A stretch of DNA of 64,000 nucleotides, taken from NCBI GenBank assembly GCA_016874005.1, contig VGVQ01000014.1, positions 40,365 through 104,364 of the forward strand, in the 5' to 3' direction. Each line of letters opens with the position of its first letter. Positions within the stretch are counted from its first letter, which is position 1. The notes under the pieces are model-generated. The model made no database searches and was not told the DNA's origin. It was given only the letters and a program-made list of their open reading frames with translations. Both the position numbers and the translations under genes were made by a program. Positions 1,791 to 41,876 of the stretch are shown here, in pieces. This stretch comes from Gemmatimonadota bacterium. GTDB taxonomy: Bacteria > Gemmatimonadota > Gemmatimonadetes > Gemmatimonadales > GWC2-71-9.

Positions 1791-2734
1791 CGGTCTTGGC
1801 TCGCGAAAGCGTGGTGGTAGTTGCGGCGCATCCCGACCAGGCCGGGGCGCGCGAGCGGGGTGTCACCGAACCGGGCGGCGAACTCCTCCTCCGCCATCGA
1901 GTCGAAGAAGGTCGGGTCGGCGGGGTCGAGATCGCCCCGGTCGGCGTAGGCCGGGTTGGCGGTCGGGACCGCGAAGCGGTGGTTCCAGGGACAGACGTCG
2001 TTGCAGATGTCGCAGCCGAACGCCCAGCCCTCGAACCGTCGGGCCAGGTCGGCCGGCGGCTCGCCCTTGTGCTCGATCGTCAGATACGAGATGCACCGGG
2101 TCGCATCCAGCACGCCGGGTTCGGGAAAGGCGCCGGTGGGACAGGCGTCGAGACAACGGGAGCAGGTGCCGCAGTGATCGGACCGGAAGGGCTGGTCGAG
2201 CGGGAGCGCCAGGTCACAGAGGACGGCGCCGATGAAGAAGTACGAGCCCACGCCAGGGCGGATCAGCATCGTGTTCTTCCCGATCCACCCGAGCCCGGCC
2301 CGGCGGGCAAGCTCGCGCTCGGGCACCGGCCCGGCGTCGACGAACGATCGGGCGACCGTCGCGCCTACCTCGCGCGCGACGTCCGACAGTCGGTCCAGCC
2401 GCCGCCGGCAGTCATGGTGATAATCCTCGCCGCGAGCATACTTCGCGATCTTGACGGTCTTGCCCCCCTGGGGCTCGGGGCCGCCGGGAGGATCGGCCGG
2501 TGGCGGCAGATAGTTGTCGAGCACGACGATCGCCGTGGTGGCCCCGGGCACGATCAGGGCGGGCTGCTTGCGTTTCGCGGCCTGCCGGTGGAGGTACCGC
2601 ATGGTCCCGGCGTAGCCCCGGGCGAGCCACCGGTCGAAGGCATCTCCTCGCTCGCTCGGCCCGAGATCGGCGAATCCGCAGGCCAAGAAGCCGAGCGACT
2701 CGGCGGCGGCGCGGATCCTAACGTCCGGCCGCAC
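1787..2734 (-). CDS. queG: Epoxyqueuosine reductase
   Basis: Catalyses the last step of queuosine synthesis, reducing epoxyqueuosine to queuosine in tRNA anticodons with cobalamin and two [4Fe-4S] clusters. Visible motifs are GLGWIGKNTMLI in the cobalamin-binding core, a first cluster CGTCSRCLDACPTGAF, and a second CDICNDVCPWN. The protein (315 aa) ends with the short MRRNYHHAFA helix and lacks the extra C-terminal HEAT-like repeats of longer QueG proteins. It overlaps the end of ndh by 17 bases and the next gene by four, so it is translated as part of a polycistron. Confidence 0.92.
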   Translation of the reverse strand: MRPDVRIRAAAESLGFLACGFADLGPSERGDAFDRWLARGYAGTMRYLHRQAAKRKQPALIVPGATTAIVVLDNYLPPPADPPGGPEPQGGKTVKIAKYARGEDYHHDCRRRLDRLSDVAREVGATVARSFVDAGPVPERELARRAGLGWIGKNTMLIRPGVGSYFFIGAVLCDLALPLDQPFRSDHCGTCSRCLDACPTGAFPEPGVLDATRCISYLTIEHKGEPPADLARRFEGWAFGCDICNDVCPWNHRFAVPTANPAYADRGDLDPADPTFFDSMAEEEFAARFGDTPLARPGLVGMRRNYHHAFASQDR

Positions 2735-3974
2735 GCCACACGCCGGTAATGAGCCGAGCTCCCCGCTGGAATGTGAGATAAGACCAGGCCCACTCGAACA
2801 TCACCACGACCCGGTTTCGGAAGCCGATCAGGAAGAAGATGTGGACGAAGACCCACAGCAGCCACGCCGTGAAGCCTGCCGTTTCGAACCGGCCGATGTC
2901 GGCGACCCCGCGGCCGCGCCCGATGACCGCGAGCTGTCCCTTGTCTCGGTAGCGGAACGGGCGGCGGGGTTTGCCGGCCAGGTCCGCTTCGATCGCGGCG
3001 GCGGCGTATTGCCCCATCTGGATCGCCACCGGGCAGATCCCCGGTAGGGTCCCGCCCGGCTGGTGCTCGAACGCAGCCGCGTCGCCGATCACGAAGACGT
3101 TAGGCCGACCGGGCACCGAGCAGTCCGGCCCGACCAGGACCCGGCCCTGGCGGTCCTGGGGGGCGCCGAGCGACTCGAGGAGCGGGCTGGCCGCGTTGCC
3201 CGCGGCCCAGATCACGGTCGCCGCCGGGATTCGCCAGTCGGCGGCATGGACGTACCCCGGTTCCACCCCGGTCACCATGGTCTCGGTTCGGACGTCGACG
3301 CCGAGGTGCCGGAGAGCCTCCTTGGCCCGGTCGCTCAGCACGGCCGGATACGACGGCAACAAACGCGGACCCCCCTCCAGGAGGAGAACCGAGGCATCCC
3401 GCGAGTCGATTCTGCGGAAGTCGCGCCGGAGCGCGTAGCGACGGATCTCCGCGAGTGCGCCCGCCAACTCGACCCCAGTGGGCCCGCCCCCGATGACCAC
3501 GAAGGTGAGTAATCGCCGCCGAGCGACCGGATCGACCTCTCGTTCGGCCAGCTCGAACGCGGTCAGCACTCGGCGGCGGATCTCGAGAGCGTCCTCGAGG
3601 CTCTTGAGCCCGGGCGCCAACTCCTCCCATTCCGGCTTTCCGAAGTAGCAATGACGGGCGCCGGGGGCCAGCACCAGGTAGTCGTAGTCCACGGCCGAGC
3701 CGTCGGCCAAGCGGACCCGATTGGCATCGAGGTCGGTCCCGATCACCTCGGCCAGCAGAACCTCGACATTCCGAGCCTGGTTGAGGATCGACCGGATCGG
3801 GGAGGCGATACTGCCGGGCGCCAAGGCCGCCGTCGCGATCTGGTAGAGCAGCGGTTGGAAGAGGTGATGATTGTTCCGGTCGATCACGGTGACGGCCACC
3901 GACCGATTCGCGAGGGACTTGGCGAGGTAGAGTCCGGCGAACCCGCCCCCGACCACCACGACGCGTTTGGTCAC
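2718..3974 (-). CDS. ndh: Type II NADH:quinone oxidoreductase (NDH-2)
   Basis: Non-proton-pumping NADH dehydrogenase feeding electrons to quinone at the inner membrane. The N-terminal FAD site is VVVVGGGFAGLYLAKSL and the second nucleotide-binding site is FVVIGGGPTGVELAGAL. The FAD-contacting NVFVIGDAA and the quinone-side PVAIQMGQYAA are present. The C-terminal hydrophobic helices (WLLWVFVHIFFLIGF) anchor it to the membrane. The track starts the frame far upstream, but the alignable protein begins at VTKRVVVV, so I use the GTG at 3974. That GTG overlaps the stop of the small upstream gene (GTGA). Length 418 aa is normal. Confidence 0.88.
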   Translation of the reverse strand: MTKRVVVVGGGFAGLYLAKSLANRSVAVTVIDRNNHHLFQPLLYQIATAALAPGSIASPIRSILNQARNVEVLLAEVIGTDLDANRVRLADGSAVDYDYLVLAPGARHCYFGKPEWEELAPGLKSLEDALEIRRRVLTAFELAEREVDPVARRRLLTFVVIGGGPTGVELAGALAEIRRYALRRDFRRIDSRDASVLLLEGGPRLLPSYPAVLSDRAKEALRHLGVDVRTETMVTGVEPGYVHAADWRIPAATVIWAAGNAASPLLESLGAPQDRQGRVLVGPDCSVPGRPNVFVIGDAAAFEHQPGGTLPGICPVAIQMGQYAAAAIEADLAGKPRRPFRYRDKGQLAVIGRGRGVADIGRFETAGFTAWLLWVFVHIFFLIGFRNRVVVMFEWAWSYLTFQRGARLITGVWRAAGR

Positions 3975-13897: not shown

Positions 13898-14806
13898 TCA
13901 GCCGCCCGACGGGTTTGAACGGCTCCTGACCGTGATCGCGCCGGAGAAGGTCCGGACCACGATCGACGCGCCCCGACCCGCGCCGGATTTCTTCCCGACG
14001 GCGAAGCGAGCCGACCGGGGATGCTGGCGGAGCACATCGCCGGAGAAGTGAGTGGCGATCGGCGCACCCTTGATGGTGGAGAGATCGAATCGGGCATCGA
14101 GTTCGCGCGGCAGCGTGATCTCGACCGGACCGTCGTGGGTTTCCACCTCGAGCTGGCCGTCGAGGGGCACGGCGGTGCGGACCTCGACGCTCCCGGAGAC
14201 CGTTTCGACTCGCCCCGACAAGAGCTCGTTCGAGACGATCTCGACCTTGCCCTGCACGGTGGCCACTACGACATCGCCCCGGGCACCCGAGATCGTGACG
14301 GCGCCGGCGCCGGTCCTGGCCCGCACCACGGTGGCGTTTCCGGTGATCGAGACATTCCCGTCGATGGTCTCGATCGCGGCAACCCGGGGGCTTCCTGTCA
14401 GCGTCACCGCACCGGTCACCGAGCTGACCTCGATCTCTCCGCGAATCTCGGCGACGATCACGTCGGCCGTTCCGCTCTTCACCCAGATCCGAGCCCCCCG
14501 CGGCACCCGCACGTCGAGGGTGGCTGGCGGTCCGGTGAAGGACGGGTTCTGACCGTCGACGCCCAGCTTGGCGGCGCGGCGGGAGCCGCCGCCGAAGAGG
14601 GAGCCGCCCCGCGGCGGAACCGTCGCCCGTACCTCGATGGAATCCCGGTCCCATCCGGTGATCCGAGTCGTACCGACGAGGTTGTAGACCCGGAGCGCGA
14701 CATCGGGGTCGGCCGGGAATCCGAGCTGGCGATCCTGGCCGGCCGCCGAGGCGGCACCCGCGATGGTCAGCACCGCGATGGCGGCCGTCGTTTGGCGACC
14801 GATCAC
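13898..14806 (-). CDS. Exported DUF4097 (repetitive beta-helix) protein
   Basis: 302 aa with a signal peptide (AAIAVLTIAGAASAAG). A run of short beta repeats follows, with alternating Gly and Val/Ile (GTADVIVAEIRGEIEVSSVTG, GNVSITGNATVVRARTGAG), as in DUF4097. Such genes often follow an ECF sigma and anti-sigma pair and may be their target or a sensor. The track's frame starting at 15427 is an artefact. GTG 14806 is chosen; it lies two bases after the anti-sigma stop. Confidence 0.75.
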   Translation of the reverse strand: MIGRQTTAAIAVLTIAGAASAAGQDRQLGFPADPDVALRVYNLVGTTRITGWDRDSIEVRATVPPRGGSLFGGGSRRAAKLGVDGQNPSFTGPPATLDVRVPRGARIWVKSGTADVIVAEIRGEIEVSSVTGAVTLTGSPRVAAIETIDGNVSITGNATVVRARTGAGAVTISGARGDVVVATVQGKVEIVSNELLSGRVETVSGSVEVRTAVPLDGQLEVETHDGPVEITLPRELDARFDLSTIKGAPIATHFSGDVLRQHPRSARFAVGKKSGAGRGASIVVRTFSGAITVRSRSNPSGG

Positions 14807-40114: not shown

Positions 40115-41182
40115 TCAGATCACCGTACCCCGCCCGATTCGGAGGACACCGCGTTGACTGGTGACTTCGCCAATGACCCGGTGGGCCGGGGTCTGGGCGG
40201 CCCTGAGCGCCTCCATCAACCCTCGGACATGCTGCTCCGGAACGGTGATCAGCAGCCCGCCCGAGGTCTGGGCGTCGGCGCAGAGCACCGCTTCGGTATC
40301 GGAGATGTCGTTCCATGCCACCGGGTTGGCCTCGAGGTTGCGGCGGGTCCCGGCGGGGATCGAGCCTTGGGCGGCGAGTTCCACTGCCCCCGGCAGGAAC
40401 GGAATCCGGGTGACGTCGAGCCGGGCCCCGACGCCGCTGCCCAGCAAGATGTTCCGCAAGTGTCCGATCAGCCCGAACCCGGTGACGTCCGTCGCGGCGG
40501 TGGCGCCGTGGGCGAGAGCGGCCCGAGACGCGGCGTCGTTGAGCTGGGTCATGACGGCAACCGCGCCCGCGATCTCGGGGCCGGTGATCAGGTCGCGTTT
40601 CAGCGCGGTCGTCAGGACCCCGGTGCCGATCGGCTTGGTGAGGACGATCAGATCGCCGGGTTGGGCCCCGGTATTGGTCAGGAGGCGGTCCGGGTGACCT
40701 TCGCCGATGACCGCCATCCCGAACTTGGGTTCGGGATCGTCGATGGAGTGCCCACCCAGAATGAGGCAGCCGGCCCGCTCGACGATCGCCTGGGCACCCG
40801 CCAGCACCTCGCCGAGCATCTCGAACGGGAGTTTCCCTCGGGGCCACCCGACTAGATTGAGCGCCAGCAACGGCCGGGCCCCCATGGCGTAGATGTCGCT
40901 CAGGGCGTTGGCCGCGGCGATCGCCCCCCAGTCGCGCGGCTCGTCGACGATCGGGGTGAAGAAGTCCACCGTCACCACCAGGGCGCGATCGGGCGCGATC
41001 TTATATACCGCCGCGTCGTCGTGGGTCGAGGCGTCAACCAGAACGTTGGGATCGTGGGTGCCCGGCACGTAGCGCAGAACCTGCGCCAACTCGGCTTGGC
41101 CGAGTTTGCAGGCTCAACCGGCGCCGTGCGACAACGACGTCAACCGAATTCGAGGCCGCTGGTCCCGTTCGATGTCACTCAT
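40115..41182 (-). CDS. selD: Selenide, water dikinase, a selenoprotein (Sec at in-frame UGA)
   Basis: 355 aa. Makes selenophosphate from selenide and ATP for Sec-tRNA and selenouridine. The track begins at TTG 41089, but the frame continues upstream through one TGA (41116-41114): RLTSLSHGAG-U-ACKLGQAELAQVL. This matches the SelD N-terminus, where this position is Cys or Sec. The next Cys-Lys is kept; the catalytic Lys is in ACK. The ATP-site motifs DDAAVYKI, GHSIDDPEPKFGMAV and ATDVTGFGLIGH are also present. Start ATG 41182 (Sec = residue 23). A hairpin just after UGA could be the SECIS. The normal stop is also a TGA. Confidence 0.9.
41088..41106 (-). promoter_or_regulatory. Candidate bacterial SECIS hairpin in selD
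   Basis: AACTCGGC-CAA-GCCGAGTT, a perfect 8-bp stem with a 3-base loop, starts seven bases after the UGA. The loop therefore lies 15-17 bases past the UGA, at the near edge of the usual bacterial SECIS spacing. The loop lacks an obvious GU/GG apical motif unless the inner pairs open, so identity is likely but not certain. Confidence 0.55.
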
Positions 41183-41876
41183 GCCGCTCCTCCTGCCGAT
41201 GGGAACCGCATTCGTCCTCGGCCTGATCCACGCCATCGACGTGGACCATGCCGTGGCCGTCTCCACGTTCGTGGCGGGTCGACCCGCCGTCCGCACCGCG
41301 ATCGGTTACGGCCTCCGCTGGGGCATCGGCCACTCCGGCGCGGTGCTGATCGCCGGGTCGGCCGCGCTCGCGCTCGGGCTCCGGTTCGACCCTCGCTTCG
41401 ACCGGTGGGCCGAGAGCGCCGTGGGTCTCATGCTCATCGGGCTCGGGATCATGGCGTTCCGGTCGCTTCGCAACTTACACCTGCACCACCCCAAGGCCCA
41501 CGGCGACCATGCCCACCTCTACGTCCACCGGGAACCCGGCCGGGACCACCCCCACCCCGCCTCGCCCCAACCGTATCATCATCCGCGCCGCCCGTTGCTG
41601 GTTGGGCTGATGCACGGGCTCGCCGGCACCAGCGGGGTCTTGGCCATCGTGCCGGTGACGCTGGTGTCGACGTGGCAAGTGGGCGTCGGCTACCTGGTGG
41701 CCTTCTCTGTCGGCGTCACGGCCGGAATGATGCTGTTCGCCCTCGGCCTCGCCGAGGCGCTCCGGCGAACCTCGGCGCGGTCCTTGATTTGGGGACGTCG
41801 GGCCGGGCAGGCGATCGCACTGGGGAGCGTGGTGACCGGGGCCGTCTGGCTCCTCAACGCGGTGCAATCGGGCTAG
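41172..41876 (+). CDS. NiCoT/UreH-type nickel/cobalt transporter-like membrane protein
   Basis: 234 aa. The first helix carries the NiCoT signature HX4DH as HAIDVDHA, followed by further helices (GIGHSGAVLIAGSAALALGL, VGYLVAFSVGVTAGMMLFALGL). A cytoplasmic loop rich in His (HLHHPKAHGDHAHLYVHREPGRDHPHP...YHH) probably binds metal. Likely moves nickel or cobalt across the inner membrane; the exact metal is inferred. Possible ATG starts are 41172, 41181 and 41199. The first two overlap the divergent selD start at 41182, so 41199 (MGTAFVLGLIH) is a fair alternative. Confidence 0.75.
   Translation: MSLMPLLLPMGTAFVLGLIHAIDVDHAVAVSTFVAGRPAVRTAIGYGLRWGIGHSGAVLIAGSAALALGLRFDPRFDRWAESAVGLMLIGLGIMAFRSLRNLHLHHPKAHGDHAHLYVHREPGRDHPHPASPQPYHHPRRPLLVGLMHGLAGTSGVLAIVPVTLVSTWQVGVGYLVAFSVGVTAGMMLFALGLAEALRRTSARSLIWGRRAGQAIALGSVVTGAVWLLNAVQSG

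Follow-up and report, generated by a model that had tools for sequence, protein, structure and literature searches.

Does the selD gene of this Gemmatimonadota bacterium carry a UGA that stops translation, or one that is read as selenocysteine (Sec), and if the latter, which of the hairpins behind it serves the decoding? The gene encodes selenide, water dikinase (SelD) and lies in a 64,000-nucleotide (nt) stretch of contig VGVQ01000014.1 (assembly GCA_016874005.1), called the window below. The source genome is a draft assembly of 3.88 Mb in 49 contigs and is 97% complete. We consider it very probable, on the sequence evidence presented here, that the product of selD is a Sec-containing selenophosphate synthetase and that its UGA would be decoded by SelB acting on a hairpin that we term H2, within a full Sec system. 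It is almost certain that this SelD itself holds selenium, inserted at the in-frame UGA.

A conserved in-frame UGA in selD

Under translation table 11, the open reading frame (ORF) assigned to selD covers 40115..41089 and opens at a TTG (41089) behind a TGA, as the first-pass annotation of this sequence had described. From the ATG at 41182 down to 40115, the selD frame has a single internal UGA, and reading this TGA as Sec gives MSDIERDQRPRIRLTSLSHGAG-U-ACKLGQAEL. The read-through protein matched the TIGR00476 selD equivalog with 376.8 bits (cut-off 125) over profile positions 1-309 of 311, contained the AIRS and AIRS_C domains, and aligned along its length with solved SelD proteins (3u0o, E = 1e-78). 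U23 fell opposite the catalytic Cys of 3u0o (SHGAGCGCK) and was followed by ACK, which includes the nearby Lys. The earlier claim that read-through restores a conserved SelD N-terminus, with U at the position of Cys or Sec, was thereby confirmed. The nearest named SelD relatives were from Gemmatimonadota, with identities of 74% or less.

Among the SelD loci fetched for comparison, the codon aligned to U23 was UGA in 60, spanning several phyla, and TGC or TGT (Cys) in 49, with no other codon at this position. Judged by this comparison, the codon and its frame exceed chance, because the UGA is kept in 60 SelD loci of several phyla. One SelD of a Gemmatimonadetes draft genome (L026:5016) had TGT at the Sec position with a 6-residue deletion right before it (RLT------GCACK), and is either a deletion variant or an assembly artefact.

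Sec-SelD is a well-described family (PMC4561486, PMC13188914), and the SelD found here is a fresh example of this known selenoprotein family, not a new kind. It shares with Sec-type bacterial SelD the full domain architecture, Sec at the catalytic position in SHGAG-U-ACK, and the co-occurrence of selA, selB and selC. Nothing essential differs, although the host is Gemmatimonadota-like and this phylum is not named in the published surveys consulted. No paper on Gemmatimonadota selenoproteins turned up in a literature search, although one may nonetheless exist.

Sec-decoding machinery and its co-occurrence with UGA-containing selD

The first-pass annotation had predicted that selA, selB and selC should exist elsewhere, and selA, selB and a tRNA-Sec gene with anticodon UCA were indeed found in the same genome (Table 1). 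Judged by its gene content, the organism decodes Sec. ybbB, the gene for YbbB (selenouridine), was searched for in the genome and not found, and therefore tRNA selenouridylation is not the reason why this genome has SelD. The tRNA-Sec gene (L001:1497-1594, minus strand, contig C18) stands beside an ORF (2011-3093, minus strand) that by eye only resembles formate-tetrahydrofolate ligase; a link to formate would fit the Sec-containing formate dehydrogenase described below.

Co-occurrence was surveyed in 149 genomes of the class, which were searched for SelD and SelA. UGA-SelD was present in 99 of them, and 97 of these 99 had selA, counting one (G062) in which selA is a fragment at a contig end. 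A SelD match without UGA was found in 15 genomes (selA in 14) and a fusion-type SelD in 7 (selA in 6), while only 3 of the 28 genomes without SelD had selA. The difference in selA between genomes with UGA-selD and those with no selD was significant by Fisher's test (p ~5e-21), although this value is not corrected for relatedness and is indicative only. All apparent rule-breakers (G084, G011, G062, G119, G072, G117 and G049) had selB, and a tRNA-Sec scoring above the cut-off was present in all except G084 and G072. Incomplete draft assemblies thus likely account for these genomes, since they have selB and most also have tRNA-Sec. In G081, which belongs to the genus of the window genome, selD and selA were absent, and neither selB nor tRNA-Sec reached the cut-offs. 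By gene content, the lineage of the window genome has a complete Sec-decoding system whose parts occur together.

In seven genomes (G068, G056, G020, G080, G131, G085 and G091), five of which belong to genus g42, SelD domains with 36-40% identity lie in open frames of about 750-860 aa without UGA. These long-frame proteins are probably oxidoreductase-SelD fusions.

Two hairpins downstream of the selD UGA

Behind the selD TGA, 7 nt (GCCTGCA) are followed by a hairpin with an 8-bp stem and a CAA loop (AACTCGGC-CAA-GCCGAGTT; H1, 41106-41088), just as the first-pass annotation had reported, and H1 is directly abutted by a second hairpin, H2. Hairpin positions are counted from U1 of the UGA. H1 is the hairpin that had been named earlier; for the role of Sec signal we find the adjacent H2 likelier. 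The consensus of the bacterial selenocysteine insertion sequence (bSECIS) has a loop of 3-9 nt with a G among the first two loop positions, a stem of 4-16 bp, 16-37 nt from UGA to loop, and a minimum free energy (MFE) of -7.5 kcal/mol or lower (PMC13188914). H2 agrees with this consensus in every point, with a 3-nt loop starting with GU (GUU), a 7-bp stem, a distance of 33 nt and -11.1 to -11.3 kcal/mol, whereas H1 departs from it, as its CAA loop has no G in the first two positions and lies 15 nt from the UGA. The arrangement differs from the consensus in that the UGA is separated from the SECIS loop by H1, which directly adjoins H2 and shows partial conservation in UGA-SelDs from several phyla.

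Table 1. Locations of selD, its signals and the Sec-decoding genes. Positions without a contig prefix are those of the window.
Feature	Location	Strand	Remarks
selD, selenide, water dikinase	40115..41182	minus	355 aa including Sec at residue 23; TIGR00476, 3u0o, AIRS + AIRS_C
selD start ATG	41182-41180	minus	read from sequence
selD terminal TGA	40117-40115	minus	read from sequence
Shine-Dalgarno-like AGGAGG	41189..41194	minus	6 nt before selD ATG, read directly
In-frame UGA, predicted Sec23 (catalytic Cys/Sec position)	41114..41116	minus	read-through, locus alignment, 3u0o alignment
Hairpin H1, AACUCGGC-CAA-GCCGAGUU	41088..41106	minus	positions 11-29 from U1; fails bSECIS rules
Hairpin H2, GGCGCAG-GUU-CUGCGCU	41071..41087	minus	positions 30-46 from U1; candidate bSECIS
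H2 apical loop GUU	41078..41080	minus	G and U invariant in 60/60 UGA-SelDs
selA	C8:21626-22930		517 bits, over cut-off
selB	C25:39651-41459		303 bits; C-terminal SelB-wing_2 and SelB-wing_3 domains
tRNA-Sec (selC), anticodon UCA	C18:18441-18534		68.4 bits vs Rfam cut-off 47; ARAGORN tRNA-SeC tca

The loop nucleotides G37 and U38 did not vary among the UGA genes, and G37 was present in 27 of 49 Cys genes. When 55 UGA genes were aligned without gaps, standard pairs made up 95.8% for H2 and 83.8% for H1, with changes on both sides in 5 of 7 and 6 of 8 pairs, respectively. When genes were recoded synonymously, keeping the peptide and applying the codon usage of the window genome to every gene, H2 was among the most stable 5% of recodings in 87% of UGA genes vs 4% of Cys genes, while the corresponding values for H1 were 22% and 4%. 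For the window gene, 1.1% of recodings were at least as stable for H2 and 12.7% for H1; H1 alone is therefore not beyond chance. On all these results, H2 is the selected element. The SECIS is most likely H2 (41087-41071) and not H1, which seems to be weakly favoured.

It is improbable that H1 rather than H2 is the element bound by SelB, or that H1 and H2 act as one element. Such a role would agree with the six H1 pairs changed on both sides and with the fact that H1 forms 6.7 of its 8 pairs in UGA-SelDs but 4.4 in Cys-SelDs. In most genes, however, H1 is no more stable than synonymous recoding would predict (median 12%), and Actinomycetota-type genes often break H1 yet keep H2. Somewhat less doubtful, though still unlikely, is that UGA-SelD genes of several phyla share a two-hairpin SECIS arrangement, with H1 serving as a structured spacer or as a site where the ribosome pauses. 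If so, H1 would bring the far GU loop (33 nt) into the range of short SECIS elements, of which the formate dehydrogenase gene of the same genome has an example.

The preference for H2 as the SECIS also agrees with what is seen in close relatives. Four genomes from the window's family (G104, G012, G146 and G027) have Cys at the SelD codon (loci L106, L109, L110 and L131) and retain selA, selB and tRNA-Sec, and one of them, G012, retains a UGA-containing formate dehydrogenase. Neither of the two findings that the first-pass annotation had named as contrary to its prediction was seen: selA, selB and selC are not missing, and the genomes with these Cys variants have kept the Sec machinery. The variants have lost the SECIS-type hairpin: H2 has decayed to -0.2 to -5.7 kcal/mol, vs about -9 to -14 kcal/mol in most UGA relatives, as is expected if H2 serves UGA decoding only. 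Sec-to-Cys replacements are documented in SelD and FdhA (PMC13188914), and the H2 decay agrees with them. The class is a clean natural experiment, holding related genomes with Sec-SelD, with Cys-SelD and intact machinery, or with no Sec system, and across it the SECIS hairpin accompanies the UGA.

Proposed decoding and its alternatives

In the proposed mechanism, SelB with GTP and Sec-tRNA-Sec would sit on the GU loop of H2 through its C-terminal winged helices and, at the UGA (41116-41114), would deliver Sec in place of termination. The product would carry SHGAG-U-ACK in a flexible selenium-binding loop and make selenophosphate for SelA, which would in turn make more Sec-tRNA-Sec, so that SelD would be both supplier and consumer of selenium. 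The sequence itself shows the reading frame, the conserved UGA, the decoding genes and the selection on H2, while Sec insertion itself, the binding of SelB to H2 and the catalytic use of Sec23 are steps that we infer.

Some observations weigh against this reading. The evidence for Sec in the SelD protein comes from sequence and is not direct. Two genomes with UGA-selD, G084 and G011, had no selA that could be found; both have selB and fragmented assemblies. Among distant UGA-SelDs, L080 and L092 are without a good H2, and the MFE fold of 51 nt of the window gene pairs GAGCCUGC with GCAGGUUC, leaving H2 unformed. This long-range pairing was rejected as a candidate, since GCG TGT or GCA TGT in relatives disrupts it.

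If the UGA were a true stop, SelD would start at the downstream TTG (41089) without its catalytic loop, or the gene would be a pseudogene. The mechanical ORF does open at this TTG, but the 22 residues upstream form the conserved SelD N-terminus behind a strong Shine-Dalgarno site, a truncated SelD would miss the active-site U/C and Lys residues, and the conservation of the UGA, with Cys as its sole alternative and selA co-occurring, also speaks against termination, which we regard as very improbable. Least credible of all is that TGC or TGT (Cys) was turned into TGA by a mistake in sequencing or assembly, for although the sequence comes from one draft assembly of 49 contigs and Cys-SelD occurs in the family, the same UGA is present in independent assemblies of relatives, including same-genus G093 and L019 (74% identity), and the SECIS-type hairpin that Cys forms have lost is intact here.

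A second selenoprotein, formate dehydrogenase

The other consumer of selenium found in this genome would be a Sec-containing formate dehydrogenase. Its alpha subunit is encoded by fdhA (C2:150792-152693). A single in-frame TGA occupies the Sec position of this gene (NRT-U-HAPSVVGL), and the profile match of 653 bits is slightly below the model cut-off because the N-terminal domain is encoded on another gene. A hairpin with a GGUCU loop lies 3′ of the UGA, in the register of E. coli fdhF, with G and U at the positions of G23 and U24; compared with these positions, the GU loop of selD (37-38) is 14 nt farther downstream. The GGUCU loop was identical in all four UGA-FdhA forms examined (three others of the family besides that of this genome), with compensatory stem changes, and was missing from Cys-FdhA forms, including that of a same-genus genome without Sec machinery. 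By itself, the fdhA hairpin is within synonymous expectation (11%).

FdhA is split, with a Sec-bearing catalytic chain that lacks the N-terminal [4Fe-4S] domain (L138:7793-12540 = C2:150792-155540). A NuoG-like subunit encoded about 2.7 kb downstream, beyond a probable fdhB, carries this domain at its end, and the split positions are the same in G149 and G012.

Further selenoproteins were looked for family by family, not exhaustively. The earlier suggestion that other UGA-interrupted genes are misannotated held for fdhA but not as a plural, with one gene shown. The Sec codon is where standard-code ORF calling truncates both fdhA and selD. When codon usage was scanned for more such genes across the window and the selA, selB, selC and adjacent C14 stretches, nothing convincing emerged; the scan also missed selD itself, which has just 22 codons ahead of the UGA, and is therefore insensitive to UGAs close to the N-terminus. 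The best candidate of the scan, at 13900 of the window (minus strand), was rejected, as it resembles two adjacent ordinary genes. About a dozen family members (G004, G033, G024, G021, G130, G012 and others) have a second formate-dehydrogenase-like gene of about 1100 aa with one in-frame TGA, and the selenoproteome of the family is therefore probably larger than SelD and one FdhA.

The gene next to selD

Head-to-head with selD, with start codons overlapping by 2 nt, lies a gene (window 41181-41876, plus strand) for a NicO/HoxN-like membrane protein, as suggested by weak matches below the cut-offs. A homologue was found near selD in six relatives (L022, L108, L109, L115, L126 and L131), two of which have Cys-SelD. 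The protein is a candidate partner of SelD in the transport of selenium or metal.
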